From assembly GCA_018645085.1 (NCBI GenBank), contig JABGPG010000273.1, positions 3,863-35,999 on the forward strand: 32,137 bases of DNA, in the 5' to 3' direction. A model generated the notes under the pieces. That model saw nothing but the letters and a program-made list of their open reading frames with translations. It was not told where the DNA came from and did not search any database. This document shows positions 66 through 15,323 of the stretch, piece after piece; position 1 is the stretch's first letter, and the number at the start of each line of letters is the position of its first letter. Origin of the DNA: Deltaproteobacteria bacterium (GTDB lineage Bacteria; SAR324; NAC60-12). A program made the position numbers and the translations under genes.

Positions 66-593
66 TTAATTATTAAGTAAAAAGCGCTCTTTGATAAAAT
101 CAGCAATTTCATCAATATCATTTAAATCTAAAACGGGCAACTGAATATTTTCGTCTGGAGCTAAATCTGTTGCTAAGGCAATGATGTCGGAGTCATTTGG
201 GTATAACAGCGGTTTTCCAAGACTCGGCCGGTGCAGTTCAATCTTTGCCAGTGGTGCGTGCTTAAACCCTTCAACCAGAACTAGATCCAATTCACTGAGC
301 GACAAATGCGGTAGTAGCTCCTCAAGTGACGGGTCACCTTTTCTTTCAGGCGACTCATGTACGAGTGCCCAGCGTTTTGCTGAAGCAACCATCATTTCAC
401 AAGCTCCGGCTTTTCGCAACTCATAGCTGTCTTTGCCCGGATGGTCAATATCAAACTGGTGATGAGCATGTTTGACCAGTCCTATTTTTAAGCCATTACG
501 GTTTAAAACAGGAATCAAACGTGTCAGCAAGGTTGTTTTTCCGGTGCCGCTATAAGCACAAAATCCAAGCAGAGGTGGAGTTACTGTTAACAT
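66..593 (-). CDS. mobB: Molybdopterin-guanine dinucleotide biosynthesis adaptor MobB
   Basis: A 175-residue P-loop GTPase-type protein that assists MobA in attaching GMP to molybdopterin, giving the bis-MGD cofactor used by DMSO-reductase-family enzymes such as formate dehydrogenase. The Walker A loop AYSGTGKTT lies at residues 13-21. The family stretch KHAHHQFDIDHPGKDSY follows, then a strand ending LVLVEGFK. The length is usual for MobB. It is the last gene of the moeA-tupABC-mobB run, 75 bp after tupC. That context agrees with a role in maturing the FDH encoded just upstream on the same strand. MobA itself is not in the window. No convincing terminator is visible in the 65 bp left before the window edge. 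Confidence 0.93.
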   Translation of the reverse strand: MLTVTPPLLGFCAYSGTGKTTLLTRLIPVLNRNGLKIGLVKHAHHQFDIDHPGKDSYELRKAGACEMMVASAKRWALVHESPERKGDPSLEELLPHLSLSELDLVLVEGFKHAPLAKIELHRPSLGKPLLYPNDSDIIALATDLAPDENIQLPVLDLNDIDEIADFIKERFLLNN

Positions 594-668: not shown

Positions 669-1322
669 TCATTGTAGCAATTGTCCATTTGAGAGATCAT
701 ACTGTACATCAGCCAGTCCGTCAAAGTATTGCGGAACATGGCTGGTGATCACAATTGACATACCGGACGACTTCATCTGCTGCATTAAAAGACACGCTTG
801 CTCCCTTGACTCCTGATCCATGTTGGAAACAGGTTCATCCAGCAACAGTACCTTAGGTTTCAAAATCCAGGCTCGGGTAAAAGCAACACGCTGCTGAACA
901 CCACCTGATAAAGTATTTGCCTGCTGTTTTGCCAATTCAGTCAGTCCGGACCATTCAAGCGCTTTCTTGAGAGATTCCCTGCGTTGTTCACGGGTTAAAG
1001 AAGTGAAACGTAAACCATAAGCAACGTTTGATTCTACAGTACCACTGAACAAAAATGCTTGTTGATGCAGGTAAATAATTTCCTTGCGTATAATGGGCAT
1101 GACTTTTTTCCAGCAACGCGACTTTCCGGAAAGTTCAATTTCAGCTTTTTCTGGTTTTTCAAGTCCGGCAATGATTTTCAGCAAGGTAGTTTTACCGGAA
1201 CCATTTTTTCCTGTGAGCAAAATACACTTCCCAGGAAAAAGAGACAAATCGACTTTACGCAGAATTTCAACTTCAGCAAAAGTTTTTTCAATACCATGAA
1301 ATACAAACAAAGGTTCGCTCAT
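669..1322 (-). CDS. tupC: Tungstate/molybdate ABC transporter ATPase TupC
   Basis: A 217-residue cytoplasmic ABC ATPase that powers oxyanion import through TupB. Walker A is GKNGSGKTT (residues 38-46), the signature is LSGGVQQRVAF, Walker B is VLLLDEP, and the switch histidine sits in TSH. It is short for an importer ATPase and lacks the C-terminal TOBE/MOP domain seen in ModC, which fits the Tup/Wtp-like type. Its ATG overlaps the tupB stop by four bases (ATGA), so the two are translationally coupled. The substrate assignment rests on the neighbouring TupA, not on this protein itself. Confidence 0.9.
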   Translation of the reverse strand: MSEPLFVFHGIEKTFAEVEILRKVDLSLFPGKCILLTGKNGSGKTTLLKIIAGLEKPEKAEIELSGKSRCWKKVMPIIRKEIIYLHQQAFLFSGTVESNVAYGLRFTSLTREQRRESLKKALEWSGLTELAKQQANTLSGGVQQRVAFTRAWILKPKVLLLDEPVSNMDQESREQACLLMQQMKSSGMSIVITSHVPQYFDGLADVQYDLSNGQLLQ

Positions 1323-2020
1323 GTAGTGACCCTTTTTTTACTCTGAATATAACTCAGAAATGCAGTCAGCAGAAAAGCGAGTGACAACAAAACCAAACCC
1401 AGCGCGATTCCCTGTGCAAACTCGCCTTTACTAGTTTCAAGGGCAATTGCAGTGGTAATGTTCCGTGTATATCCCATGATATTACCACCTACCATCATCG
1501 AAATTCCCACCTCCGAAATAACCCTGCCAAATCCGGTAAGCACTGCTGCCAGCAAGCCAAAACGCACCTCATAAAATATAGTCAGGATTGTAAACCACGT
1601 AGGCGCACCCAGGGTACGTGCTGTTTCCCATACTCTACGGTCCGCTGTCTGAATTGCGGCATAACCCAATGCTACCAAAACAGGAAAACATAAAAACATC
1701 TGTCCGATTACCATGGCGCTTTGGGTGAATAATAACTTTAAATCACCAAAAGGACCTTGACGTGTCAGCAGTACATACAGGAATAATCCTACTACAACAG
1801 TCGGCACAGAAAGTAGTGAATTAAAGAAAGCAAGAATAAATCTGCTACCCGGAAAATTCCCATGATGCAACCCAAAGGCGAGCAGCAGTGCGACAGGAGT
1901 GGTTAGCAAAATTGCTTTAAGTGAGACCGAAAAGGAAAGCAGGACAATCGACCATAATTCGGCATCACCGTATAACAGTAATTGTAATGCTTGTTGTGTA
2001 GTTAACAGTAAACCGTTCAT
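1319..2020 (-). CDS. tupB: Tungstate/molybdate ABC transporter permease TupB
   Basis: A 233-residue integral inner-membrane permease with about five to six hydrophobic segments. It has the binding-protein-dependent permease loop around ETARTLGAPTWFTILTIFY, which docks on the ATPase. The open frame extends 26 codons further upstream, into tupA. I chose the internal ATG at 2018-2020 because the product then begins MNGLLLTTQQAL as TupB proteins usually do, and because it falls one base after the tupA stop. Its stop overlaps the tupC start. It transports the oxyanion delivered by TupA. Confidence 0.9.
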   Translation of the reverse strand: MNGLLLTTQQALQLLLYGDAELWSIVLLSFSVSLKAILLTTPVALLLAFGLHHGNFPGSRFILAFFNSLLSVPTVVVGLFLYVLLTRQGPFGDLKLLFTQSAMVIGQMFLCFPVLVALGYAAIQTADRRVWETARTLGAPTWFTILTIFYEVRFGLLAAVLTGFGRVISEVGISMMVGGNIMGYTRNITTAIALETSKGEFAQGIALGLVLLSLAFLLTAFLSYIQSKKRVTT

Positions 2021-2021
2021 T

Positions 2022-2825
2022 TCAGTTTTTAATTGCAGTTGGGATAAACAATGGTTGTCCCTGCAGACGGAAATTCCTGATACGGTTTTGACCTTCAACT
2101 GAGGTCAACCAGGCAATCAGCGACATGGCACCCAGATAATTGATGCTCGGATATCGTGCGGGATTGACCGCGATTATGCTGTAAGGATTATATAATTCAG
2201 CATCGCCTTCTGCCAATAATTTTAGTGATAATTTAGCGCGCATAACCAGCCATGTTCCTCGATCAGTAATTGTATAAGCATTCAATTCGTCAGCAATTTG
2301 CAGGGCACGTCCCATACCCTGTCCTACTTCACGATACCATGATATTTCCGGTTTCCATTGGGCTTTTTTCCAGAGTTGCAGTTCCTTTTTATGAGTCCCG
2401 GAATCGTCACCACGCGAAACAAACAAATTTTTTCCACGTGCAATTTTCTGTAAACTTCTCACAGCATTATTTTCACCATGGATATTTGCCGGATCATCAG
2501 TAGGTCCGACAATCACAAAATCATTGTACATCAGACTGCGACGATTTAAGCCAAATCCTGCATCAACAAAACGCATTTCCGCTGTTGGCGCATGCACCAG
2601 CACTACATCTACATTGCCGTCCTGCCCCATACGCAGTGCCTGTCCAGTACCGACTGAAAGCACATGCACCACATTGCCTGTCTGTTTTTCAAAATACGGA
2701 ATGAGAACTTTAAGCAGACCTGAGTTTTCGGTACTGGTAGTCGTTGCTAATCTGATCGGTTCTGCCTGAACAATCCCTGTGCCGATAATGCAGATGAGGA
2801 TTACTAATAGTAATTTATTCATCAT
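2022..2825 (-). CDS. tupA: Tungstate-binding periplasmic protein TupA
   Basis: A periplasmic solute-binding protein of about 267 residues. A signal peptide (MMNKLLLVILICIIGTGIVQA, cut before EPIRLA) is followed by the TupA hallmark TTTSTENSGLL, then VGTGQALRMGQDGNVDVVLVHAP and MYNDFVIVGPTDDPA. The TTTST and GTGQA loops bind the tetrahedral oxyanion in this family. TupA members usually prefer tungstate strongly, though some also take molybdate; sequence alone cannot settle which. The start is one of two adjacent ATGs (2825 or 2822) inside the end of moeA, an overlap of 8-11 bp. This implies coupling with moeA. The gene is complete and lies mid-operon. Confidence 0.93.
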   Translation of the reverse strand: MMNKLLLVILICIIGTGIVQAEPIRLATTTSTENSGLLKVLIPYFEKQTGNVVHVLSVGTGQALRMGQDGNVDVVLVHAPTAEMRFVDAGFGLNRRSLMYNDFVIVGPTDDPANIHGENNAVRSLQKIARGKNLFVSRGDDSGTHKKELQLWKKAQWKPEISWYREVGQGMGRALQIADELNAYTITDRGTWLVMRAKLSLKLLAEGDAELYNPYSIIAVNPARYPSINYLGAMSLIAWLTSVEGQNRIRNFRLQGQPLFIPTAIKN

Positions 2826-4068
2826 AGAGCCACACCAACACTTCATCACCTTCCGCAAATCCTTCTGATTCTTCTTCAGTCAACATAAATGCGTCCGCTT
2901 GAGTTGTCGTAGACAGAATTGAGGCACCACCGGCAGCAATAAAATAAGCACGTTCGTTTTCAATCCGGAGACGCACATATTCAGTACGACCAATTTGGGA
3001 AGATATTTTAGTTGCAAGTTTCACAAGTTTAGTCCGGTAAGGCCAGTCTGCCGAACGCCCGCCCATCAGCCTCAGCGAACGGCCGACAAAATAATCATAG
3101 GCTGATAAACATGAGACTGGATTTCCCGGCAGCAAAAATACTTTTTTCGCGGCGCCCGCTGATTTTCCGGGAATCAGCCCAAATCCCGTCGGAGCAGCAG
3201 GTCGCATTGGTATTCCGTGTACTAGTAATTCACCAAGTTCATCCAGCAGGATCGGTCCATAATCCTCAATTCCCACAGAAGTACCGCCAGTTACGCAAAT
3301 GAGATCAGCAGTTGATTCACTTAAATGCTGCTGTAATAAATCGCGCTCATCCGGAAGATGATGAACTGCTGTTAAAAGACCGCCATCGCGTTTAATCAAT
3401 GGTGAGAGCATGACAGAATTTGAATCAATGATTTTTACTCCGCCGGCTTGCTCTCCGGGTTTCAGCAATTCATTTCCGGTGATCAATAATTCAACTTCCG
3501 GTTTGCGGATAACTTTAACATTTTTCAAACCGATACTCGACAAAACTCCGATGTCCTGCGGGCGGAGAGTACGACCACTCTTGAGTAAAGACTGGTTTTT
3601 CTTAATATCTTCACCAATCTGCCCTACATGTTTTCCTGGAGATACTGCATCAAGAACTTGAATTTGATTGCAGACTAATTCAGCATTTTCTGCAATCAAA
3701 ACTGCATTCGTCCCTTTTGGCAGTGGCCCTCCAGTCATGATACTCAATGCTTCTCCGGACTGAACTTCTGCATCAAACGTTTGTCCAGGAGTAATTTGTC
3801 CGACAACTCGAAACATTAACGGATTGTAACTAGTCGCTCCAAAGGTGGATTCAGCATCAATAGCATATCCGTCCATGGCTGAGCGCTCAAAGTTTGGCAC
3901 ATTTACAGGTGAAATTATTTCCTGTGCTAATATCCGCCCACTTGCTTCTACAGTAAGTATCTCTTCTGAAGATAATAACTGTGAGTGTTCCTTGATCAAT
4001 TTCAGCAATGTTTTGACAGGTGTTCGCTTAAGAAATCCGCGCATGCGAATGTCAGCTATTGACTTCAT
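2815..4068 (-). CDS. moeA: Molybdopterin molybdotransferase MoeA
   Basis: A cytoplasmic enzyme of 417 residues that inserts molybdate (or tungstate) into adenylylated molybdopterin. Visible family blocks are NFERSAMDGYAI near the N-terminus, the MPT-binding VTGGTSVGIEDYG in the central MoCF domain, and LPGNPVSCLSAY, followed by the C-terminal beta domain. It leads the tup operon, coupling metal insertion to metal uptake. The start is uncertain: ATG at 4068 gives MKSIADIRMRGF, and a second ATG eight codons later (4044) begins MRGFLKRTPV, closer to typical MoeA N-termini. Neither has a clear Shine-Dalgarno sequence. A candidate promoter and structured leader precede it. Confidence 0.94.
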   Translation of the reverse strand: MKSIADIRMRGFLKRTPVKTLLKLIKEHSQLLSSEEILTVEASGRILAQEIISPVNVPNFERSAMDGYAIDAESTFGATSYNPLMFRVVGQITPGQTFDAEVQSGEALSIMTGGPLPKGTNAVLIAENAELVCNQIQVLDAVSPGKHVGQIGEDIKKNQSLLKSGRTLRPQDIGVLSSIGLKNVKVIRKPEVELLITGNELLKPGEQAGGVKIIDSNSVMLSPLIKRDGGLLTAVHHLPDERDLLQQHLSESTADLICVTGGTSVGIEDYGPILLDELGELLVHGIPMRPAAPTGFGLIPGKSAGAAKKVFLLPGNPVSCLSAYDYFVGRSLRLMGGRSADWPYRTKLVKLATKISSQIGRTEYVRLRIENERAYFIAAGGASILSTTTQADAFMLTEEESEGFAEGDEVLVWLYDE

Positions 4069-4331: not shown

Positions 4332-5426
4332 TCAAGAAGCTGATACTTTACCGGTTGAAAGTCCCGCAGGACCACTTGAAGATTTAGCGGATTTTTTGGC
4401 TTTTGCAGGAGCTTCTTCACCCATTTGTTCAGCATACCACAAATCGTGATGTTGCTTAGCCCACGCAGTATCTACCTCACCGGTTACCATTCCGTTGAAA
4501 GCACCTTCTACTCCAATGCTTCCCATGTAGGTATGTCCCAGTGAAACTGCAATCAAAATCAAACCACTGACAGAATGCAGAATGTGCATGGTAATCATGG
4601 TATTGCGCAGCGGTTCAAGGTTAGGCATAACCAGAATTACTCCGGAAACAATCAGCACAGTACCTCCGATTGTCAGCAGCCAGAACCAGATTTTTTCACC
4701 AGCGTTATTTTTACCGGATGACGGATGACTGCCGTCAAACATCCCCCCTGATTTAGCCAACCATTCCGCGTCTTCTGAGCGAAACATGTTGTCCTTGAGC
4801 CAAGGCAGAATCATCATCACCAGTGCAACTGCAAAAGGAATTCCCAACAAGTCGTGAACATCTTTACAGAACATGGCAAGTCCGGCGAAACCCTCTCTAC
4901 CAAAAAGTGGTATCAAAACCGCTCTTCCATAAAGTAGAATCAAACCGCTGATTGACATGACAAAGAAAGTCACAGCAACAATCCAATGGATACATCTATC
5001 GTAGAGATTCCAACGTTTTATTTTGGTACCGGAAAGTTCGCCTTCAACTTTCATCGGTCCCGCAAACATGAAATACCCAGCAACTGCCACCAGTATAAAG
5101 GCAATCAGCCATGCACCATAAGGCGAAATTGTGTCATTACGCAACACACGCCAGATTTCACCACTGTCGTTAACCAGATTCCCTGCTTCCGGAGCCCGGT
5201 CTGTTGTGTAGCCACTTCCGCCTTGTCTAATCTCGCCCCAATAAGCGGAGCGTGGATTATCAGTGAATTCACCCTTGGCCTGTACCGTATCCGTGGTCAT
5301 AAAATAACCGGGAATTGGTGCCAGGACAACAATCATCCACATGGCGACAAACGTCCACAAAATCCTGCGATTGCGACGTTTTCTACGGCTACCTTCATCT
5401 GTAGTATTATTTTCTGAATTCAACAT
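4332..5426 (-). CDS. fdhC: Formate dehydrogenase cytochrome b (gamma) subunit
   Basis: A 364-residue membrane subunit that carries electrons from the FeS subunit to quinone. An N-terminal membrane helix (residues ~22-43) and a periplasmic loop with NPRSAYWGEIRQGGSGYTT precede a second helix (~103-122). The four-helix cytochrome b556 domain then carries likely haem ligands at His147 (RCIHW), His191 (VHD), His281 or 284 (MHILH) and His298 (SLGHTY). The tail is rich in Ala, Lys and Ser. The start at 5426 is chosen for the GAGGAG site at 5438-5433, which overlaps the fdhB stop; a longer frame reaching 5468 runs into fdhB and is unlikely. It is the last gene before the terminator. Confidence 0.94.
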   Translation of the reverse strand: MLNSENNTTDEGSRRKRRNRRILWTFVAMWMIVVLAPIPGYFMTTDTVQAKGEFTDNPRSAYWGEIRQGGSGYTTDRAPEAGNLVNDSGEIWRVLRNDTISPYGAWLIAFILVAVAGYFMFAGPMKVEGELSGTKIKRWNLYDRCIHWIVAVTFFVMSISGLILLYGRAVLIPLFGREGFAGLAMFCKDVHDLLGIPFAVALVMMILPWLKDNMFRSEDAEWLAKSGGMFDGSHPSSGKNNAGEKIWFWLLTIGGTVLIVSGVILVMPNLEPLRNTMITMHILHSVSGLILIAVSLGHTYMGSIGVEGAFNGMVTGEVDTAWAKQHHDLWYAEQMGEEAPAKAKKSAKSSSGPAGLSTGKVSAS

Positions 5427-5437
5427 ATGAATCTCCT

Positions 5438-6025
5438 CTATTCTCCGTAGGCGCTGGACCAGCCCCAAGTATCAGGACGTCCTCCGCGTTGCATGACCCT
5501 TGATGTGAAGGTTTGCGAAATCTGGTCACTATCACCAGCCAGCAAAGCTTTTGTCGAACACATTTCCGCACAGAGAGGTAGTTTGCCTTCGGCTAAACGG
5601 TTGGAACCGTACTTACTCTCTTCTTCAGCAGAACCATCCGCGGTTTCAGGACCACCTGCACAGTAAGTACATTTGTCCATTTTACCACGAACACCAAATG
5701 CTTCGTTTTGAGGAAACTGCGGTGCGCCAAAAGGACAGGCGTAGAAGCAGTAACCACATCCGATGCACATGTCTTTATTGTGCAGGACAACACCATCAGA
5801 TGTCGTCGAGAAGCAGTCAACCGGACAGACTGCCTGACAAGGCGCATCTGTACAGTGCATGCAGGCGACCGAGATTGACTTCTCACCCGGTTCACCATCA
5901 TTAAGAGTTACAACCCTGCGTCGGTTAATTCCCCAGGGTACATCATTTTCATTTTTGCAAGCTGTGATGCAAGCATTGCATTCTATGCAACGTTCGGCGT
6001 CACAGAGAAATTTCATTCGAGCCAT
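5438..6025 (-). CDS. fdhB: Formate dehydrogenase iron-sulfur (beta) subunit
   Basis: A 195-residue ferredoxin-like subunit with four cysteine groups for [4Fe-4S] clusters. They are C8 plus CIECNACITAC (13-23), CMHCTDAPCQAVCPVDC, CIGCGYCFYACPFG, and CTYCAGG paired with LCAEMC. It relays electrons from the catalytic subunit to the cytochrome b subunit. It has no signal peptide of its own, so it is probably exported together with the Tat-targeted catalytic subunit, as is known for this family. It has a good ribosome site (AAGGAG) and starts 18 bp after the fdhA stop. Unlike E. coli FdnH it has no C-terminal membrane anchor, matching the shorter FdhB type. Confidence 0.95.
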   Translation of the reverse strand: MARMKFLCDAERCIECNACITACKNENDVPWGINRRRVVTLNDGEPGEKSISVACMHCTDAPCQAVCPVDCFSTTSDGVVLHNKDMCIGCGYCFYACPFGAPQFPQNEAFGVRGKMDKCTYCAGGPETADGSAEEESKYGSNRLAEGKLPLCAEMCSTKALLAGDSDQISQTFTSRVMQRGGRPDTWGWSSAYGE

Positions 6026-6043: not shown

Positions 6044-8935
6044 TTATGCCAGTTCAATTTTACACAGCGAGCACTTAGTCTCCTGCATTTGTGTGACAGA
6101 ATCATATCCATAGGTAAGTGCCGTATTGGCAGCCTCACCCAACACATAGGGATCGCTTCCTTTTGGATACTTGTTACGCAGATCTTTGCCTTCAAAGTGT
6201 CCGCCAAAATGGAACGGCATGAAAACCACTCCTGGTGCAACACGCCGAGTAATCATGGCCTTGACTTTAAGACGCGCTCCTTCTGCACCTTCCAGCCAGA
6301 TATCCAGACCATCCTTGATTCCATTGTCATTTGCGTCTTTCGGATTAATTTCCGCAAACATTTCCTGCTGTAGTTCTGCCAGCCAAGGATTTGATCGAGA
6401 TTCATCACCTCCACCTTCATACTCAACCAGACGACCGCTGGTTAAAATCAACGGATACTGTCCGGTATGATCTGTGGACTGTATGCTTTCGTAACGGGTT
6501 GGCAGGCGGTAATGACTTTTCCGATCCTCATAAGTTGGATACTTAGCCACCAAATCCCGACGGCTGGTATAGAGCGGTTCTCTATGAACAGGCACAGGAT
6601 CCGGGAATGTCCAGACCTTCACTCTGGCCTTTGCATTTCCGAATGGTGCGCAACCATGTTTGATTGCAACGCGCTGAATTCCACCGGAAAGATCTGTTTT
6701 CCAGTTGGTCTTGCTGCCGGCAACTTTTGCTATCGCTGCTTTTTCCGCAGCTGTTAAATCTGAGTCCCAACCGAGTCTTTCTAGCATAGCCATACTAAAT
6801 TCCGGATGGCCGTCTCGTAACTCATTACCTACTGGAAACGAACCTTCCGCCAGCAAATTCACACCTTCATGCTCAACACCGAAACGTGCACGGAAGTTAA
6901 GACCGCCTTCCGCAACTGGTTTACTTGGATCATAAAGGTTTGGTGTTCCAGGATGTTTCATTTCCGGAGTCCCCCAACACGGCCACGGCAGTCCGTAATA
7001 TTCTCCATCAACAGGTCCACCTTCTGCTTTCAGTGAAGTTGTATTAAAGGTATGCCAGTTTTTCTGTTGAAGTTTCAAACGCTCCGGACTTTGACCTGTG
7101 TAACCGATGGTCCACATACCTCCGTTGAACTCACGGGTAATATCCTCGATATAAGGCTCTTCATTGACAACTTTGATATTTTTCGTGAATTCTTTATCGA
7201 AACCAAATTTCCGGGCAAACTTATACATGATCGTATGATCCGGAAGAGATTCAAACAGAGGAGCGATTACTCTGTCACGCCACTGCAGTGAGCGGTTGGA
7301 AGCGGTAAGAGAACCGTATGTTTCAAACTGTGTCGAGGCCGGAAGGAGATATACTCCATCCTTGCGGTCGTGCATCACAGCCGAAACTGTTGGATATGGA
7401 TCAATGATCACCATCAAGTCCAACTTCTCCATGGCGGTTTTCATTTCCTTACCACGAGTTTGACTGTTTGGTGCGTGACCCCAGAGGACCATGGCCCTGA
7501 TGTTGTCTTTCTGAGTAATATTTTCTTTATCTTCAAGCACCCCGTCTATCCAGCGTGAAACCGGAATACCTTTGGTATGCATGGGTGATTTACCACCTTC
7601 ATAGGCCTGTTGGTCAAAACGTGATTTAACCCAGTTAAAATCCAGATCCCAAACACGCGACCAATGTTTCCAGGCTCCGGCTGACAAGCCGTAATAACCC
7701 GGCAGACTATGCGAAAGAATACAAAAGTCAGTAGCACCCTGCACATTGTCGTGTCCGCGGAAAATATTTGCTCCGCCGCCTGCTTTACCAATGTTACCCA
7801 ATGCCAGTTGAAACGCGCAATAAGCACGTGTATTATTATTTCCAATCGTGTGCTGTGTTCCGCCCATACACCAGATGAAAGTTCCCGGTGAATTCTTCGC
7901 CATTATTTCAGCAGCTTTTTTGACCGTTGCTTCATCAGCACCGGTAACGCGTTCTACTTCAGCAGGAGTCCATTTTTCAACTTCTGCTTTTACATCTTCC
8001 ATTCCGAAAACACGTTGATCGATATATTCCTGATCCTCCCAGCCATTATTAAAAATATGCCACATCATCCCCCAGATTATTGCCACATCACTTCCTGGCC
8101 TGATGCGTACATAATGATCAGCATGTACTGCGGTACGCGTGAAACGCGGGTCAATCACCAGCAGTTTTGCTCCCTTTTCTTTTGCTTTAAAAATATGCAG
8201 CATTGAAACCGGATGTGCTTCTGATGGATTTCCACCAATAACCAGCATCGATTTACTGTTATGAATATCATTGAGGGAGTTAGTCATCGCACCGTAGCCC
8301 CATGTATTTGCTACACCTGCAACTGTAGTTGAGTGACAAATCCGAGCTTGGTGATCCACATTATTCGTGCCCCACATTGCCGCAAACTTTCTGAACAGAT
8401 AGGATTGTTCATTGTTGAACTTCGCTGAACCAAGCCAGTACACCGAATCCGGTCCTGATTTTTCACGGATCTGCATCATTTGATCACCTACCTCATCAAT
8501 GGCCTGATTCCAGGAAACACGTTTCCACTGGCCACCAACAAGTTTCATCGGGTACTTTAGCCGGCGTTCGCCATGTCCATGTTCGCGTACGGCAGCTCCT
8601 TTAGCACAGTGAGCACCCAGACTGATTGGATGATCAAATGCAGGCTCCTGTCCAGTCCAGACACCATTTTGAACTTCAGCATAAACACCGCAACCTACCG
8701 CGCAATGGGTACATATTGAGCGAATTTTCTCAATTTTGCCTCCCGCTGCACTACCTGAGGCGGCATGTGCCTTCTTCATCATTCCCGGCGTGAGCATCGA
8801 CGTCAGTGCCGTGCCTCCTGCCGCTAAACCGGAATTACGCAAAAAGGTTCTACGGTCAACCGAAGACCCCTTAAAACCTGCTGATACTCCTTGCGCCTGT
8901 TCCTGATTCTCAGCTTTTTTTCTGATTAATTTCAT
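6044..8935 (-). CDS. fdhA: Periplasmic formate dehydrogenase catalytic (alpha) subunit, Cys-ligand type
   Basis: A 963-residue molybdopterin oxidoreductase that oxidises formate to CO2. The Tat motif DRRTFLRNSG (from residue 27) is followed by a hydrophobic stretch and a likely cut after AHA. The proximal [4Fe-4S] cluster has Cys75, Cys78, Cys82 and Cys110. The metal ligand is Cys200 in ARICHSTTVAG; its codon (8338-8336) is TGT, so this is not a selenoprotein. His201 is the usual adjacent catalytic histidine. The C-terminal MGD-binding domain is present (IWLEGAEGARLKVKAMITRRVAPGV region). Metal may be Mo or W; the nearby tupABC genes favour W as inference. The fdhD sulfurtransferase gene, usually required, is not in the window. 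Confidence 0.96.
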   Translation of the reverse strand: MKLIRKKAENQEQAQGVSAGFKGSSVDRRTFLRNSGLAAGGTALTSMLTPGMMKKAHAASGSAAGGKIEKIRSICTHCAVGCGVYAEVQNGVWTGQEPAFDHPISLGAHCAKGAAVREHGHGERRLKYPMKLVGGQWKRVSWNQAIDEVGDQMMQIREKSGPDSVYWLGSAKFNNEQSYLFRKFAAMWGTNNVDHQARICHSTTVAGVANTWGYGAMTNSLNDIHNSKSMLVIGGNPSEAHPVSMLHIFKAKEKGAKLLVIDPRFTRTAVHADHYVRIRPGSDVAIIWGMMWHIFNNGWEDQEYIDQRVFGMEDVKAEVEKWTPAEVERVTGADEATVKKAAEIMAKNSPGTFIWCMGGTQHTIGNNNTRAYCAFQLALGNIGKAGGGANIFRGHDNVQGATDFCILSHSLPGYYGLSAGAWKHWSRVWDLDFNWVKSRFDQQAYEGGKSPMHTKGIPVSRWIDGVLEDKENITQKDNIRAMVLWGHAPNSQTRGKEMKTAMEKLDLMVIIDPYPTVSAVMHDRKDGVYLLPASTQFETYGSLTASNRSLQWRDRVIAPLFESLPDHTIMYKFARKFGFDKEFTKNIKVVNEEPYIEDITREFNGGMWTIGYTGQSPERLKLQQKNWHTFNTTSLKAEGGPVDGEYYGLPWPCWGTPEMKHPGTPNLYDPSKPVAEGGLNFRARFGVEHEGVNLLAEGSFPVGNELRDGHPEFSMAMLERLGWDSDLTAAEKAAIAKVAGSKTNWKTDLSGGIQRVAIKHGCAPFGNAKARVKVWTFPDPVPVHREPLYTSRRDLVAKYPTYEDRKSHYRLPTRYESIQSTDHTGQYPLILTSGRLVEYEGGGDESRSNPWLAELQQEMFAEINPKDANDNGIKDGLDIWLEGAEGARLKVKAMITRRVAPGVVFMPFHFGGHFEGKDLRNKYPKGSDPYVLGEAANTALTYGYDSVTQMQETKCSLCKIELA

Positions 8936-9036: not shown

Positions 9037-9243
9037 CTAAAATGAAGTCGTTTTATAATAAGCGTTAATATGCTCACTCAGATGATAACCTTTCGAAGAG
9101 TTATCTTCTTTTACGGGTGAAGCGTCGACTTGCTCCGGTGAAATCATCTTTGATGCTGTGATTGCTACAGCCGCACCTGAACCGGCAACTACAACTCCTT
9201 TTAAAAAACCGCGACGTCCGCTTGTGGTTTCTTCGTTCTTCAT
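9037..9243 (-). CDS. fdhX: FDH-region Tat-signal small protein
   Basis: A 68-residue protein consisting mostly of a twin-arginine signal: SGRRGFLKG followed by a hydrophobic stretch (VVVAGSGAAVAITA), then about 35 hydrophilic residues. It matches the small 'formate dehydrogenase region TAT target' family, which sits immediately before fdhA in many Proteobacteria. Its role is not established; assistance with export or assembly of FDH is the usual inference. It has a strong GGAGGAAG site just upstream of its ATG. It lies about 100 bp before fdhA and 195 bp after the ABC exporter permease. Confidence 0.85.
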   Translation of the reverse strand: MKNEETTSGRRGFLKGVVVAGSGAAVAITASKMISPEQVDASPVKEDNSSKGYHLSEHINAYYKTTSF

Positions 9244-9438: not shown

Positions 9439-10608
9439 TCAGGCAGAGTTTTGTTGCCGACTTGAGACAAGGACAAGGAAGAGGAGAATACCCAGGAAAA
9501 ATCCACTCAGAGTAAGCAGTTGGGGCCAGGAATCCCAAAGATTTTGCTGTTTCAACAAAACGTTTCGCATCGCTACGTTTGCGTGTGTTAACGGCAAAGC
9601 GAGTGAAATCCACTGAAAAAATACAGGAAAACTATCAATACTCCAAATCATGTCACTTAAAAATATCTGCGGCAAAATAACTAGCGGGATGAATTGCACC
9701 GCCTGAAACTCGTTTGCCGCAAGGAATGAAGCCAGCAAACCCAGGACAAGTGAAATCAGGAGCATCAGCAAAGTCAAAATAGTTATTGCTCCGACCTGTG
9801 AGAGCGTTATCTTGAAGCTCATCAGTGTTAGTATAAATGTCAATATGATTACTGCCTGACAGCCGGAAAAAATAATAAATCCACCTATGTAACCCATCAC
9901 AATTTGAGCAAAAGACACAGGTGCAATCAATAACCTCTCAAGTGTTCCACGTAAACGCTCGCGCTGGAAGGTAATTGTCGTAATGAGAAATGTAAAGAAA
10001 AAGACAAAGAATGGGGGGAATACCGGCAGGAAAAAGTCTATCAAACGATAATCTTCTGAGCCATAAAGAAAATGTTCTTCCAGATCAAGGGGTTTAATGT
10101 TGACCGAGTTTGCACAAAACGCCGAACAGGAACTATCAATAACTACCGGAAGTGAAGCTGCTAAATCATCCATCGCAGAAGCAACAGATTCAACAACTGA
10201 TGCTGTCAAAGTTGGCCTGGAACCTTCCAAATAAAAATCGATCCTTCCTCTTTTTCCATCAAAACGTTCCTCCAGTAATTGTTCTCCTAAAAACAGAATC
10301 CCTTCCGCATGGCCATCACGCAATTCAGCCCAAATTAATTTTTCCAAAAGTTCTGGATCAACTTCTTCGTCCGGAATATCAAGTGAAACCAGTTCAATGT
10401 CCTCTTCCTCCAGAGTCATCATCAAATCTGCTTCAAAGAGGCGCATCACTCCACGGGAAACAACTCCAAGTCTCGCAGTCTCATCTTCCTGCAAAGCATA
10501 ATATATCAGTGACATAACAAGCAATGGAACAAGGAAGAAAAATGCCAAAGTTCGACGATCCCTCATTATTTCTCGTATTATCCGCCAGGATATCCAATGA
10601 GTGACCAT
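9439..10608 (-). CDS. ABC-2 type exporter permease (YhhJ/YbhR-like)
   Basis: A 389-residue inner-membrane permease of the ABC-2 family. One N-terminal helix (residues ~22-40) is followed by a large periplasmic domain (~45-195), typical of the YbhR/YhhJ/Wzm-like drug or envelope exporters. Five more helices lie between about 200 and 385. The loop FQRERLRGTLERLLIAPVSFAQIVMG is the conserved cytoplasmic region that contacts the ATPase. It starts two bases after the ATPase stop, so the pair forms one exporter. Substrate is unknown. Its placement between torD and fdhX inside an FDH cluster is unusual. No HlyD-type periplasmic adaptor is encoded nearby. Confidence 0.85.
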   Translation of the reverse strand: MVTHWISWRIIREIMRDRRTLAFFFLVPLLVMSLIYYALQEDETARLGVVSRGVMRLFEADLMMTLEEEDIELVSLDIPDEEVDPELLEKLIWAELRDGHAEGILFLGEQLLEERFDGKRGRIDFYLEGSRPTLTASVVESVASAMDDLAASLPVVIDSSCSAFCANSVNIKPLDLEEHFLYGSEDYRLIDFFLPVFPPFFVFFFTFLITTITFQRERLRGTLERLLIAPVSFAQIVMGYIGGFIIFSGCQAVIILTFILTLMSFKITLSQVGAITILTLLMLLISLVLGLLASFLAANEFQAVQFIPLVILPQIFLSDMIWSIDSFPVFFQWISLALPLTHANVAMRNVLLKQQNLWDSWPQLLTLSGFFLGILLFLVLVSSRQQNSA

Positions 10609-10610
10609 AA

Positions 10611-11333
10611 TCAGCCTCCTATCCTTGCTTGAGTTGCCTGAACGAAAGCTTTTTCCAAATCATTACAATTGTAACGTTCCATGAGACTCTCAGGAGTATC
10701 ATACTCAAGTAATTTACCCTCCCTTAAAAATGCAACTTTATCACAACGACTGGCTTCACTGATATGATGTGTTGTTATCAAAATAGTAGTCCCAGTTTGC
10801 GCTAACTCTGCAAACCAGTCCCAGAAACGCAACCTCAAAGATGGATCAACACCTGCTGTCGGCTCGTCCAAAATAATCAATGATGGTTGGTGGATAAGGG
10901 TAGTCGCCAGCATCAGTCGTCGCAGCATTCCGCCGGAAAGATCGCCTGCTAATTTATTCTGCTCTGGCTCGAGTTCTACCATCTTAAGTAATTTGTGTGT
11001 GCGGGATTGAACTACGCTTTCAGGAATTCCGTATAACCTCCCAAAAAACAGAACATTTTCGTATACCGACAAACCAGGATAGACAGCCAGTTGTTGAGGC
11101 ATATAACCCAGCTTTTTTCTCACCAATTTATCGCCCGGTGAATATTTTTCTAAAATGCTTAGTCGTCCGGAAGTTGGTTTGAGCAACCCCATAGCCATTC
11201 TCAGGATCGTTGTTTTTCCAGAACCATTTGGTCCAAGAAGACCAAAAACAATACCCTGCGGAATGTTCAGATCCAAGTTGTCAACGACGGTTTGAGTACC
11301 ATATTTTTTTGTAACTCTTGTCAGTTTCAGCAT
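10611..11333 (-). CDS. ABC exporter ATPase, CcmA/YbhF type
   Basis: A 240-residue ATPase with Walker A GPNGSGKTT (34-42), signature LSGGMLRRLMLA, Walker B LIILDEPTAGVDP and the switch region TTHHISEA. The GVDP sequence after Walker B is typical of the drug/polysaccharide exporter class. It pairs with the permease that follows two bases later. No Shine-Dalgarno sequence precedes its ATG; the leader there is pyrimidine-rich (CCCTCCTCCC). A promoter and a perfect inverted repeat lie upstream, so the pair probably has its own control and is not simply read through from torD. Confidence 0.9.
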   Translation of the reverse strand: MLKLTRVTKKYGTQTVVDNLDLNIPQGIVFGLLGPNGSGKTTILRMAMGLLKPTSGRLSILEKYSPGDKLVRKKLGYMPQQLAVYPGLSVYENVLFFGRLYGIPESVVQSRTHKLLKMVELEPEQNKLAGDLSGGMLRRLMLATTLIHQPSLIILDEPTAGVDPSLRLRFWDWFAELAQTGTTILITTHHISEASRCDKVAFLREGKLLEYDTPESLMERYNCNDLEKAFVQATQARIGG

Positions 11334-11582: not shown

Positions 11583-12188
11583 TCAGGCAAGCATGGAAAG
11601 GTATTGTTTTTCAAAACGGTTAAACTCAGCACCTAAAGTACCGACTGAGCGGTAAAAACAGGCATGCTCAGCTTTTTCCAGATCAGTGTAAAATCGGTCA
11701 ATCCAGGCTTCAATGTGGTTACGGAAGAAATTGGTGGATTCATTTTCATTTGAATCTTCGGACAATATCAGCATAGCCATCACTTCACAAAGTGCTGCAG
11801 CATGGTCTTCCGGTTCATGCACACCTTCCTGTCTTTCAAAACCCAGACGCAACAGATCCTCACGAAGAACTCCCAGTGGTTTTTCCATCAAGAATCCGGT
11901 GAGATACCACGAAGCAAAGGGCACCAGTTCTCCACGACCCATGCCAATAAAGAGGGCGTGATATTCCTCTTCCAGTGCTTCACTGTCAACGCTTTTAGCT
12001 GCAAGTTTCAGCAAATTCAAAGCCTGACCAAGCCCGCCTTTGCTATTTTTCTTGTCTGAATTACTTCCAGCTGCGTATTCAATTGCATCCAACTGCTCGA
12101 ACAGGGTTTGATCAGGAACACCGCGTAACAGTCTTCCTAACAATGCGTACATTCCACCGCGTAATTGATTTTCTTCACTGATTTTCAA
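11583..12188 (-). CDS. TorD/DmsD-family molybdoenzyme chaperone
   Basis: A 201-residue all-helical cytoplasmic chaperone. Diagnostic blocks are EEEYHALFIGMGRGELVPFASWY near residues 73-95 and EPEDHAAALCEVMAML around 125-140. TorD-type chaperones bind the Tat signal of a partner molybdoenzyme and hold it for cofactor insertion. Here the partner is almost surely FdhA, encoded downstream. It starts about 57 bp after the DUF3306-ferredoxin gene. After its stop there is a T-rich stretch on the coding strand but no clear stem-loop, so read-through into the exporter genes is possible. Confidence 0.9.
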   Translation of the reverse strand: MKISEENQLRGGMYALLGRLLRGVPDQTLFEQLDAIEYAAGSNSDKKNSKGGLGQALNLLKLAAKSVDSEALEEEYHALFIGMGRGELVPFASWYLTGFLMEKPLGVLREDLLRLGFERQEGVHEPEDHAAALCEVMAMLILSEDSNENESTNFFRNHIEAWIDRFYTDLEKAEHACFYRSVGTLGAEFNRFEKQYLSMLA

Positions 12189-12245: not shown

Positions 12246-14291
12246 TTAAAACATGTCGACCACTCTGCAGTCCTCACACATTTTCAAACGGTCAAGCGCA
12301 CCGGGTTCTGAAAACATGGAATGTCCGGCTAAACGACCGGTAATCATTGCTATCATACTTGGTGTTGAAAACGCCTTTCCGCATTTGATACAGCAAAATG
12401 GTTCTTCCTCTTTAAGGATATGCAGATCTTTTCTTAATTCCGGAGAAAGTAGAATCCGGCTTTCAAGACTGACTATTTTCTCTGGACACGCCGATTCACA
12501 CAGTCCGCACTGTACACACAAATTCTCCTGGAAATTTAAGCGTGGGTGTTCTCCACCTGCAGTTAACGCAGAAGTGGGACAAATACCCGCACATGACAAA
12601 CAAAGCGTACATGATTTTGAGTCAATCTTAACCTGACCGAAAGCTGCATCCTGAGGTAAATTTATCATTTCCTGAGGTTCCTGAGCACATTCATAAAGAT
12701 GGTCAAGTGCGTAAAACAAAGCCTTCCTTTTATCACTCAAAGCAAAATATGTAGCTTCAGCAATTTTAGGCATAGCTTTTGTTTTTTCCAGCAAAACGTC
12801 TGTCAATTCTGTTTTTCGACCGATCCAGTTGATGCATGTTTCCGCAAATCCAAGTCCCTGTAAAATAAGCTGTGCGGTTTTAATCTGCTTCTGGATCAGG
12901 TTTTCCACACTTTCCGGAATTAAAAAAGAGTCGAGCAGCAGCACTTTTTTTGCACCAAAAGCAAGTGCAGAAAACCAAATTTCCAAACCGATACTGCCTA
13001 CTTCTTCAACTTCAATGGAAAGGATGTTTCCGGGCATTGAGTCAATAATATGTTCAATTCTCTCTGCACCAGCTTCTTCACCATAAAATAAAAGACATGG
13101 TTCTTCACCGCCTGCTTTACTGAAATTCGCCAGCAAAGTCCGAATACGATTGGTCATATCTTCCGGACGTGGGAATACATATTTGAGTGCACCTGTTGGA
13201 CAAACTGTTGCACAAACTCCTCCGCCCTGACACAGATAATTATCAACATCTATTGCTTCTCCCTTTGATGTAATCGCTAGAGTCGGACAAGCTTCCAGGC
13301 AGCGCTGGCAACCTGTTTGTTCACTTTTGTTGTGAGCGCAGATGTTAGCATCGTATTGAAGAAAAACTGGTTTTTCAAATTCTCCAACCTGTTCCGGCAA
13401 AGCTTCAAGTGCCTTTCTCAAAATTGTTTCATCGCCTTCAGGAGCATAGTAACCGAGCGGTTTTGTGTCAGCACCTGACAATGAAGGTGTATTCAAATCA
13501 AGAATTAAATCAAAATTTTCACGGTTACTGTCCACCACCTGCGCAATGTTCATATTACCCTGTGGGGTTTCCAGCGTGACTGTGAAATTTCCCAAATATC
13601 CGCTTATTTTGACTTCTAGGTTTTGACTGTAAATCACTTTTATACCGTCAAAATCTTCCTCATCTCCGCGTCCAATCCTCAAAACACTTGTCGTCAACGG
13701 ACTTTCCTTCAGACTTGTTAGCGCCTGCATGATTGGGGTTTCGTCCTTAGCAATGATCAGCAGGTTTCCGCTCGATAACAGCGGAACCATTGAAGTCGGT
13801 TCTACTGAAACTTCTTCTACTGCAGCAAATGCTTTTTCACGTGCCTCAACATTTTCATCAACTTCTTCCATTTCTTTCGCTCTCTTTTCTAATTTTGTTT
13901 TTTGTTTTAATTTCATTTCCTGAGTGATTATATTACCTAAAGGGGCAAAAAACGTATAATCCTCATCATAATCATCAAGTCCGTCAGTGATGTTAAATTC
14001 TGCACCTGAAAACAATTTCCGCAATGCAAGTTTCCTAATCGATTCACTGACTTCCGGAGACAGGAACTGTGAGTAATCTGAATCTGCCCCAAGTTCTTCC
14101 AGTGAGGGCAAAGTAGATTCATCAGCAGATTTCGGAGTAGACTCATTAAACTCTTTTTCTGTCTCGGTTTCTTGAACCTCTAAAGGCTCAACAGCTTTTT
14201 GTTCTGCTTCCAGAGTTTCTACTTCTAGATTTTCCTGCCGGACTTTTTCCAGACGTTCATCCCAGCGATTTGCGAGTTTTAATTTTTTCAC
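12246..14291 (-). CDS. DUF3306-polyferredoxin fusion protein of FDH cluster
   Basis: A 681-residue protein. Residues ~8-125 match DUF3306, with RWDERLEKV at the start and LPSLEELGADSDYSQFLSP, LRKLF, DGLDDYDEDYTFFAPLGNI afterwards. The rest is the 4Fe-4S protein normally encoded next to it in FDH clusters. Its cysteines are C318, C328, C331, C335; C354, C360, C364; C561, C564, C567, C571; C592, C595, C598, C602; and a C-terminal set C633, C634, C637 with C672, C675 that could bind zinc or another cluster. A charged, helical linker (~125-165) joins the two parts. No signal peptide or membrane helix is seen, so it is probably cytoplasmic. Function is unproved; electron supply or protection during FDH maturation is inferred. 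Confidence 0.85.
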   Translation of the reverse strand: MKKLKLANRWDERLEKVRQENLEVETLEAEQKAVEPLEVQETETEKEFNESTPKSADESTLPSLEELGADSDYSQFLSPEVSESIRKLALRKLFSGAEFNITDGLDDYDEDYTFFAPLGNIITQEMKLKQKTKLEKRAKEMEEVDENVEAREKAFAAVEEVSVEPTSMVPLLSSGNLLIIAKDETPIMQALTSLKESPLTTSVLRIGRGDEEDFDGIKVIYSQNLEVKISGYLGNFTVTLETPQGNMNIAQVVDSNRENFDLILDLNTPSLSGADTKPLGYYAPEGDETILRKALEALPEQVGEFEKPVFLQYDANICAHNKSEQTGCQRCLEACPTLAITSKGEAIDVDNYLCQGGGVCATVCPTGALKYVFPRPEDMTNRIRTLLANFSKAGGEEPCLLFYGEEAGAERIEHIIDSMPGNILSIEVEEVGSIGLEIWFSALAFGAKKVLLLDSFLIPESVENLIQKQIKTAQLILQGLGFAETCINWIGRKTELTDVLLEKTKAMPKIAEATYFALSDKRKALFYALDHLYECAQEPQEMINLPQDAAFGQVKIDSKSCTLCLSCAGICPTSALTAGGEHPRLNFQENLCVQCGLCESACPEKIVSLESRILLSPELRKDLHILKEEEPFCCIKCGKAFSTPSMIAMITGRLAGHSMFSEPGALDRLKMCEDCRVVDMF

Positions 14292-14960: not shown

Positions 14961-15323
14961 TTATTGTTTCAGCACAAAAAAAGCATTTGGACCAGCGCAG
15001 AAATCAGTCTGGAGTTGACGATGATAAACAAAAACGATTGTTTTTCCTCCAATCATTTCCGCAAACTCAAAGCGCCATTCCTCGGTTTTTTGCTGAAATT
15101 CACGTTGAAGCACTTTAAATCTCTGCATTTCTCTGAGCAAAACATAGGCTACTGCAGGGTGTTGTTCCAACTCCAGAGAACTTCCGTAAATTCCGGAAAC
15201 TCTATATCCGCTTTCTTGATTAACAGCTTTTTCACAAAGATTCTCCTGTTTTTCTGCTGACTCTACCACCTGAACAAAGGAGCCTGCAAACACAAATAAA
15301 AAAGCAAAAAACAGTCGCATCAT
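14961..15323 (-). CDS. Small secreted protein of unknown function
   Basis: A 120-residue protein I do not recognise. It has a clear signal peptide (MMRLFFAFLFVFAGSFVQVVESA, probable cut after ESA). The mature part of about 97 residues holds two cysteines, one near its start (ENLCEKA) and one near its end (TDFCAGP), which could form a disulfide in the periplasm. The central region (RFKVLQREFQQKTEEWRFE) looks helical. Its start abuts the stop of the metallophosphoesterase gene with no spacing, suggesting a two-gene unit. No function can be given. Confidence 0.65.
   Translation of the reverse strand: MMRLFFAFLFVFAGSFVQVVESAEKQENLCEKAVNQESGYRVSGIYGSSLELEQHPAVAYVLLREMQRFKVLQREFQQKTEEWRFEFAEMIGGKTIVFVYHRQLQTDFCAGPNAFFVLKQ

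Follow-up and report, generated by a model that had tools for sequence, protein, structure and literature searches.

Respiratory operons for formate dehydrogenases (FDHs) of the FDH3 type share a set of genes that includes DUF3305, DUF3306, fer4 and torD/dmsD (PMC4464133), and SO_4506/FdhT/FdhAB of Shewanella is a known system of this type (PMC5826389). In Methylorubrum, tungsten incorporation was shown to require MoeA1, MobB and FdhD, and moeA1, mobB and tupBCA are clustered (PMC13197769). No function is assigned to DUF3305 or DUF3306 in Pfam, and a text search over 5.4 million open papers gave, among the matches listed, a single one in which the two are named.

We analysed a 32,137-nt stretch of SAR324 DNA (the window), whose minus strand carries an operon with this gene set (Table 1). 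The operon is assigned to the FDH3 type, with both the beta and the gamma subunit scoring above their cut-offs. For FdhA, the best model was TIGR01591, whose cut-off of 666 bits was not reached (462 bits); the assignment relies on FdhB, FdhC and synteny. FdhA has a twin-arginine motif (DRRTFLRN) near its N-terminus, from which export by the Tat pathway is predicted. The metal of the enzyme is probably tungsten, judging from the adjoining Tup, MoeA and MobB genes; FdhD is encoded on the same contig, ~3 kb beyond the window. The ABC-2 pair is missing in the SAR324 genome CPC1 (L002), where torD and fdhA are only ~0.6 kb apart. The structure model of DUF3305 was confident, and no fold match with E<0.001 was found for it in the PDB. 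Upstream of DUF3305, a 120-aa ORF (14961-15323, minus strand) has a signal-like N-terminus and no Pfam or NCBIfam match.

Table 1 Features of the FDH operon in the window, and DUF3306::TorD fusions at four other loci (locus names in the first column)
Feature	Position	Strand	Evidence or remarks
MobB	66..593	-	Pfam PF03205, E=6.2e-50
TupA- and TupB-like proteins and ABC ATPase of tungstate transporter	669..2858	-	
MoeA-like metal insertase	2815..4068	-	NCBIfam
FdhC, cytochrome b gamma subunit	4332..5468	-	TIGR01583, 174.6 bits (cut-off 115.85)
FdhB, FDH3-type beta subunit	5438..6025	-	NCBIfam NF038355, 331.6 bits (cut-off 240)
FdhA, molybdopterin/W catalytic subunit	6044..8935	-	Tat motif RRTFL; Cys (RICHST), not Sec
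68-aa protein	9037..9243	-	Tat-like N-terminus GRRGFLKGV; no Pfam match; position as small Tat protein of FDH operons
ABC ATPase and ABC-2 permease, between torD and fdh structural genes	9439-11333	-	
TorD/NarJ-family chaperone	11583..12188	-	Pfam PF02613, E=2.5e-29; PRK04976 below cut-off
DUF3306::polyferredoxin fusion gene	12246..14291	-	681 aa; GTG start 14291, TAA stop 12246
C-terminal four-Cys site	12267..12392	-	Cys 634, 637, 672, 675
C-terminal Fe-S dicluster	12486..12611	-	8 invariant Cys, residues 561-602
MvhD/FlpD-like region, ~residues 398-505	12777..13100	-	Foldseek; placed by eye, boundaries approximate
N-terminal Fe-S dicluster	13200..13340	-	Cys 318, 328, 331, 335, 354, 360, 364; Gly 357
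Polyferredoxin core, residues 168-681	12249..13790	-	Pfam, alignment, AlphaFold2
Junction helix, residues 120-158	13818..13934	-	AlphaFold2, alignment to separate proteins, dN/dS
DUF3306 domain, residues 8-118	13938..14270	-	Pfam PF11748, E=7.4e-22
DUF3305, 167 aa	14288..14791	-	Pfam PF11749, E=9.7e-37
DUF3306::TorD fusion, L148	5539-6633	-	
DUF3306::TorD fusion, L224	6907-7980	+	
DUF3306::TorD fusion, L225	7027-8073	-	
DUF3306::TorD fusion, L226	6561-7643	-	

The coordinates of the fusion gene had been given correctly in a preliminary description, which read its first ~125 residues as DUF3306 and the remainder as a 4Fe-4S protein. Both assignments are borne out: PF11748 scored 78.8 bits against a curated cut-off of 25 and was covered from position 4 to 120 of 120, and several Pfam Fer4 families match in blocks at residues 326-368 and 554-606. 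The frame has no internal stops, and its GTG start shares 4 nt with the stop of the DUF3305 gene. No Tat-like motif was found at the start of the fused protein, and no signal peptide was seen in its sequence.

The polyferredoxin part is homologous from end to end to stand-alone proteins and comprises two Fer4 diclusters and a four-Cys site. In the aligned polyferredoxins, 19 Cys are invariant, seven and eight in the two diclusters and four near the C-terminus, where they probably form a metal-binding knuckle. Residue 357 (13221-13223, minus strand) is Gly in SAR324. The Cys expected there is also absent from almost all colinear gammaproteobacterial relatives, whereas the alphaproteobacterial polyferredoxins and those of the other colinear branch have it. 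Owing to this loss, one Fe-S cluster may be a 3Fe-4S cluster or have another ligand. With Foldseek, the polyferredoxin model matched chains of HdrA, FwdF, HycF and MvhD, and sequence searches agreed for FwdF, HdrA and HycF. The MvhD-like region matched 5odh_D and 5odc_D (E ~0.005, probability 1.00) and has no conserved Cys in the aligned set; a homologous SAR324 paralogue of the polyferredoxin contains FlpD (PF02662). The likeness of the C-terminal end to HycF was seen in both NCBIfam PRK12387 (residues 552-676, below cut-off) and Foldseek (7z0s_F). Whole-chain TM-scores on the query were 0.10-0.18, and these resemblances are therefore ones of domains only.

In other SAR324 genomes (L179-L188), the Tat-type FDH cluster is of another kind and includes NrfD and an FG-GAP/cytochrome c protein. 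Its ~660-aa polyferredoxin homologue has an FlpD domain and, by eye, an HdrA-like N-terminus replacing DUF3306, and is followed by a protein with a 157-aa frame and no Pfam match. The SAR324 paralogous polyferredoxins were rejected as hidden DUF3306 fusions, their N-terminus being different.

This genome is not alone in having the fusion. Searching SAR324 and Pseudomonadota for the same architecture, as the preliminary description had suggested, we found it also in two other SAR324 and eight gammaproteobacterial genomes. It is rare, and most relatives encode DUF3306 and the polyferredoxin separately, as that description had stated. DUF3306 was found in three of 52 SAR324-phylum genomes, fused in all three, and in 61 of 398 genomes of a Pseudomonadota sample, where judged by frame length none had a polyferredoxin fusion (the longest DUF3306 open frame, 451 aa, is too short for one). 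Taxon names of the further samples were read from the known genomes around which each was drawn, and some genomes were counted in more than one sample. One genome (G745) was fused among the 47 with DUF3306 in the class of G283 (369 genomes), and none in the class of G258 (41 of 289 with DUF3306) or, by frame length, in the genus of G258 (105 of 147). The gammaproteobacterial family of G745 had DUF3306 in 19 of 63 genomes, of which eight were fused and 11 had frames too short for a fusion. The long open frames of L156, L157 and L158 (408-469 aa) were rejected as fusions, because their surplus is spurious frame; the polyferredoxin, where present among them, lies in another frame than DUF3306.

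Gene order explains where a fusion can happen. Beta- and gammaproteobacterial loci mostly read DUF3305-DUF3306-polyferredoxin-TorD-FdhABC on one strand, and in the nearest colinear unfused relatives the DUF3306 stop and the polyferredoxin start share 4-14 nt, with the two genes in different frames. At most alphaproteobacterial loci the polyferredoxin gene runs divergently, and at some loci it is missing from the neighbourhood of DUF3306, so a fixed stoichiometry of the two proteins is not required.

Four Bradyrhizobium-type genomes encode a second kind of fusion, of DUF3306 with a TorD/NarJ-family chaperone, in which both Pfam domains score above cut-off (Table 1). Furthermore, NCBIfam NF011058 describes a family of MobA-DUF3305 fusions. 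We found no DUF3305-MobA fusion within the loci examined, where the long frames look spurious. At an Azospirillum locus, a separate MobA-like gene (L144:4677-5303, plus strand) lies directly upstream of DUF3305. Fusions and neighbourhoods would thus link polyferredoxin, DUF3306 and TorD on one side and DUF3305 and MobA on the other, that is, a redox protein, a signal-peptide chaperone and cofactor synthesis.

The recurrent fusion suggests that DUF3306 and the polyferredoxin work together in enzyme assembly. The preliminary description had taken the single polypeptide as a Rosetta-stone argument for a physical complex in FDH maturation; this was reasonable, and it gains strength from the eight gammaproteobacterial genomes and the four DUF3306::TorD fusions. 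We propose, giving it an even chance, that DUF3306 is a cytoplasmic adaptor that links the polyferredoxin and TorD for the maturation of FdhA before export. In this picture, DUF3306 would tether the polyferredoxin to the FdhA precursor, alongside DUF3305 and TorD. Carrying up to four Fe-S clusters and a C-terminal four-Cys site, the polyferredoxin would supply electrons (Fe-S units being a less likely cargo) while the W-bis-MGD/4Fe-4S site is loaded and reductively activated, before folding of FdhA is complete and the protein exits by Tat. We infer a cytoplasmic location of the fused protein, a physical contact of DUF3306 with the polyferredoxin, and the electron-supply step. A cytoplasmic maturation role is the best supported, given the TorD fusion, the lack of an export signal and the content of the operon (TorD, the small Tat protein, FdhABC, MoeA, Tup and MobB); a Tat motif is present in FdhA but not at the start of the fused protein. 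More tentatively, we suggest that DUF3305, DUF3306, polyferredoxin and TorD assemble in the cytoplasm into a so far undescribed complex that matures exported FDH3, in which DUF3306 would be the hub and join the redox module to the signal-peptide chaperone.

The polyferredoxin could instead serve as an electron carrier for the working enzyme, linking FDH (or the quinone pool) to cytoplasmic ferredoxin; DUF3306 would dock it at the membrane enzyme, and it would have no part in maturation. Its parts do resemble relay subunits, namely HdrA and MvhD of heterodisulfide reductase complexes, FwdF and HycF, and the homologue in the NrfD-containing SAR324 cluster has FlpD and HdrA-like parts (the latter by eye). 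However, the Tat motif of FdhA and the cytochrome b FdhC should place the catalytic side in the periplasm, and no export signal is seen in the polyferredoxin. The MvhD-like region is also without conserved Cys, and both the co-location and the second fusion involve chaperone-type genes. We consider such a carrier unlikely.

The remaining explanations concern the junction itself. The single fused frame is common to three SAR324 genomes, the other two (CPC1 and NIOZ-UU44) being 91% and 72-73% identical to the window copy, with open frames of 684, 684 and 679 aa in the three. Across residues 119-166, dN/dS of the window copy against the other two was 0.14 and 0.16, with substitutions chiefly at third codon positions, and the sole length difference among the SAR324 copies is an in-frame one of three codons; both alternative frames contain stops. 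The junction in SAR324 is thus under purifying selection, and the preliminary description was right to see a real two-domain protein. What it called a charged linker (~125-165), however, does not join the domains as a free stretch: the fused protein aligns with the N-termini of stand-alone polyferredoxins from about residue 147 on, and AlphaFold2 (mean pLDDT 88, pTM 0.78) drew residues 120-158 as one helix. In this model, the stretch consists of the C-terminal end of DUF3306 and the native N-terminus of the polyferredoxin, as one helix from both parents. Since pLDDT is <50 at residues 31-53 and most of 104-118, the model does not show DUF3306 packed against the polyferredoxin. The DUF3306 tail after the core motif is 61-93 residues long in unfused relatives (loci where the motif search could place it), and in the fused proteins measured, 45-53 residues separate the motif from the first polyferredoxin strand; the tail is shortened in both fused lineages. 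An internal translation start that would yield free polyferredoxin is less probable: the window copy has no Shine-Dalgarno-like site before the candidate starts, and weak ones occur in L003.

A fusion can arise merely from gene overlap, and would then imply equal expression only. On such a reading, a near-neutral stop loss or frameshift joined overlapping genes, and the domains are independent and need no contact. The 4-14 nt overlaps, at which one small indel could fuse the genes, and the rarity of the fusion (none in the 61 genomes with DUF3306 in the Pseudomonadota sample) are in its favour. However, two fused lineages each retained the fusion through species divergence, and the junction dN/dS in SAR324, the shortened tail in both lineages and the separate DUF3306::TorD fusion also argue against near-neutrality, which we regard as slightly less probable still than the carrier. 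An assembly frameshift or missed stop joining two genes, for which no support was found, is most improbable and for practical purposes excluded, given the one frame shared by three SAR324 species and eight gammaproteobacterial genomes, the in-frame indel, the purifying selection and the stops in the other frames.

A tree of five concatenated proteins placed the SAR324 trio beside a gammaproteobacterial clade of eight fused and six unfused genomes, a pattern that needs two changes. Two larger alignments, in which DUF3306 rows were misplaced, were left out of the analysis. A single clade of all fused genomes was rejected (p-AU 2.4e-5, quick tree), as it was on a smaller genome set (p 0.0007). 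These results fit two separate fusions or a single one with a subsequent split. Two independent fusions are the simpler reading, because unfused DUF3306 proteins have a long tail, which is an argument rather than proof. The SAR324 operon is nested within gammaproteobacterial diversity and is rare in its own phylum, so that it was likely gained horizontally.

All parts of the fused protein belong to known families. We found no description of the DUF3306-polyferredoxin and DUF3306::TorD architectures in the literature searched. The two fusions name likely partners of DUF3306, and a cheap test is possible. Maturation of the alpha subunit is reportedly the major bottleneck in the production of a W-FDH in E. 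coli; missing maturation helpers could therefore be useful for such production.

The MobA-DUF3305 family (NF011058) likewise joins a DUF of FDH clusters to a molybdopterin-cofactor protein, but the partner there is DUF3305 and in the window DUF3306. The relay subunits HdrA, MvhD, FwdF and HycF resemble the fused protein in sequence or fold in their ferredoxin domains, the MvhD-like region and the HycF-like C-terminus, whereas the domain order differs, DUF3306 is extra and the MvhD-like region is without conserved Cys. As in the tungsten cofactor assembly of Methylorubrum (MoeA1, MobB, MobA, FdhD, tupBCA; PMC13197769), the window has MoeA, MobB and Tup beside FDH, with FdhD on the contig; in the available part of that report, however, the system is the soluble FDH1, and DUF3305, DUF3306 and the polyferredoxin are not treated. 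With known FDH3 operons the window shares the gene set and, with their colinear beta- and gammaproteobacterial form, the gene order, but it differs from them in encoding DUF3306 and the fer4 protein as one polypeptide and in carrying an ABC-2 pair between torD and fdhA.
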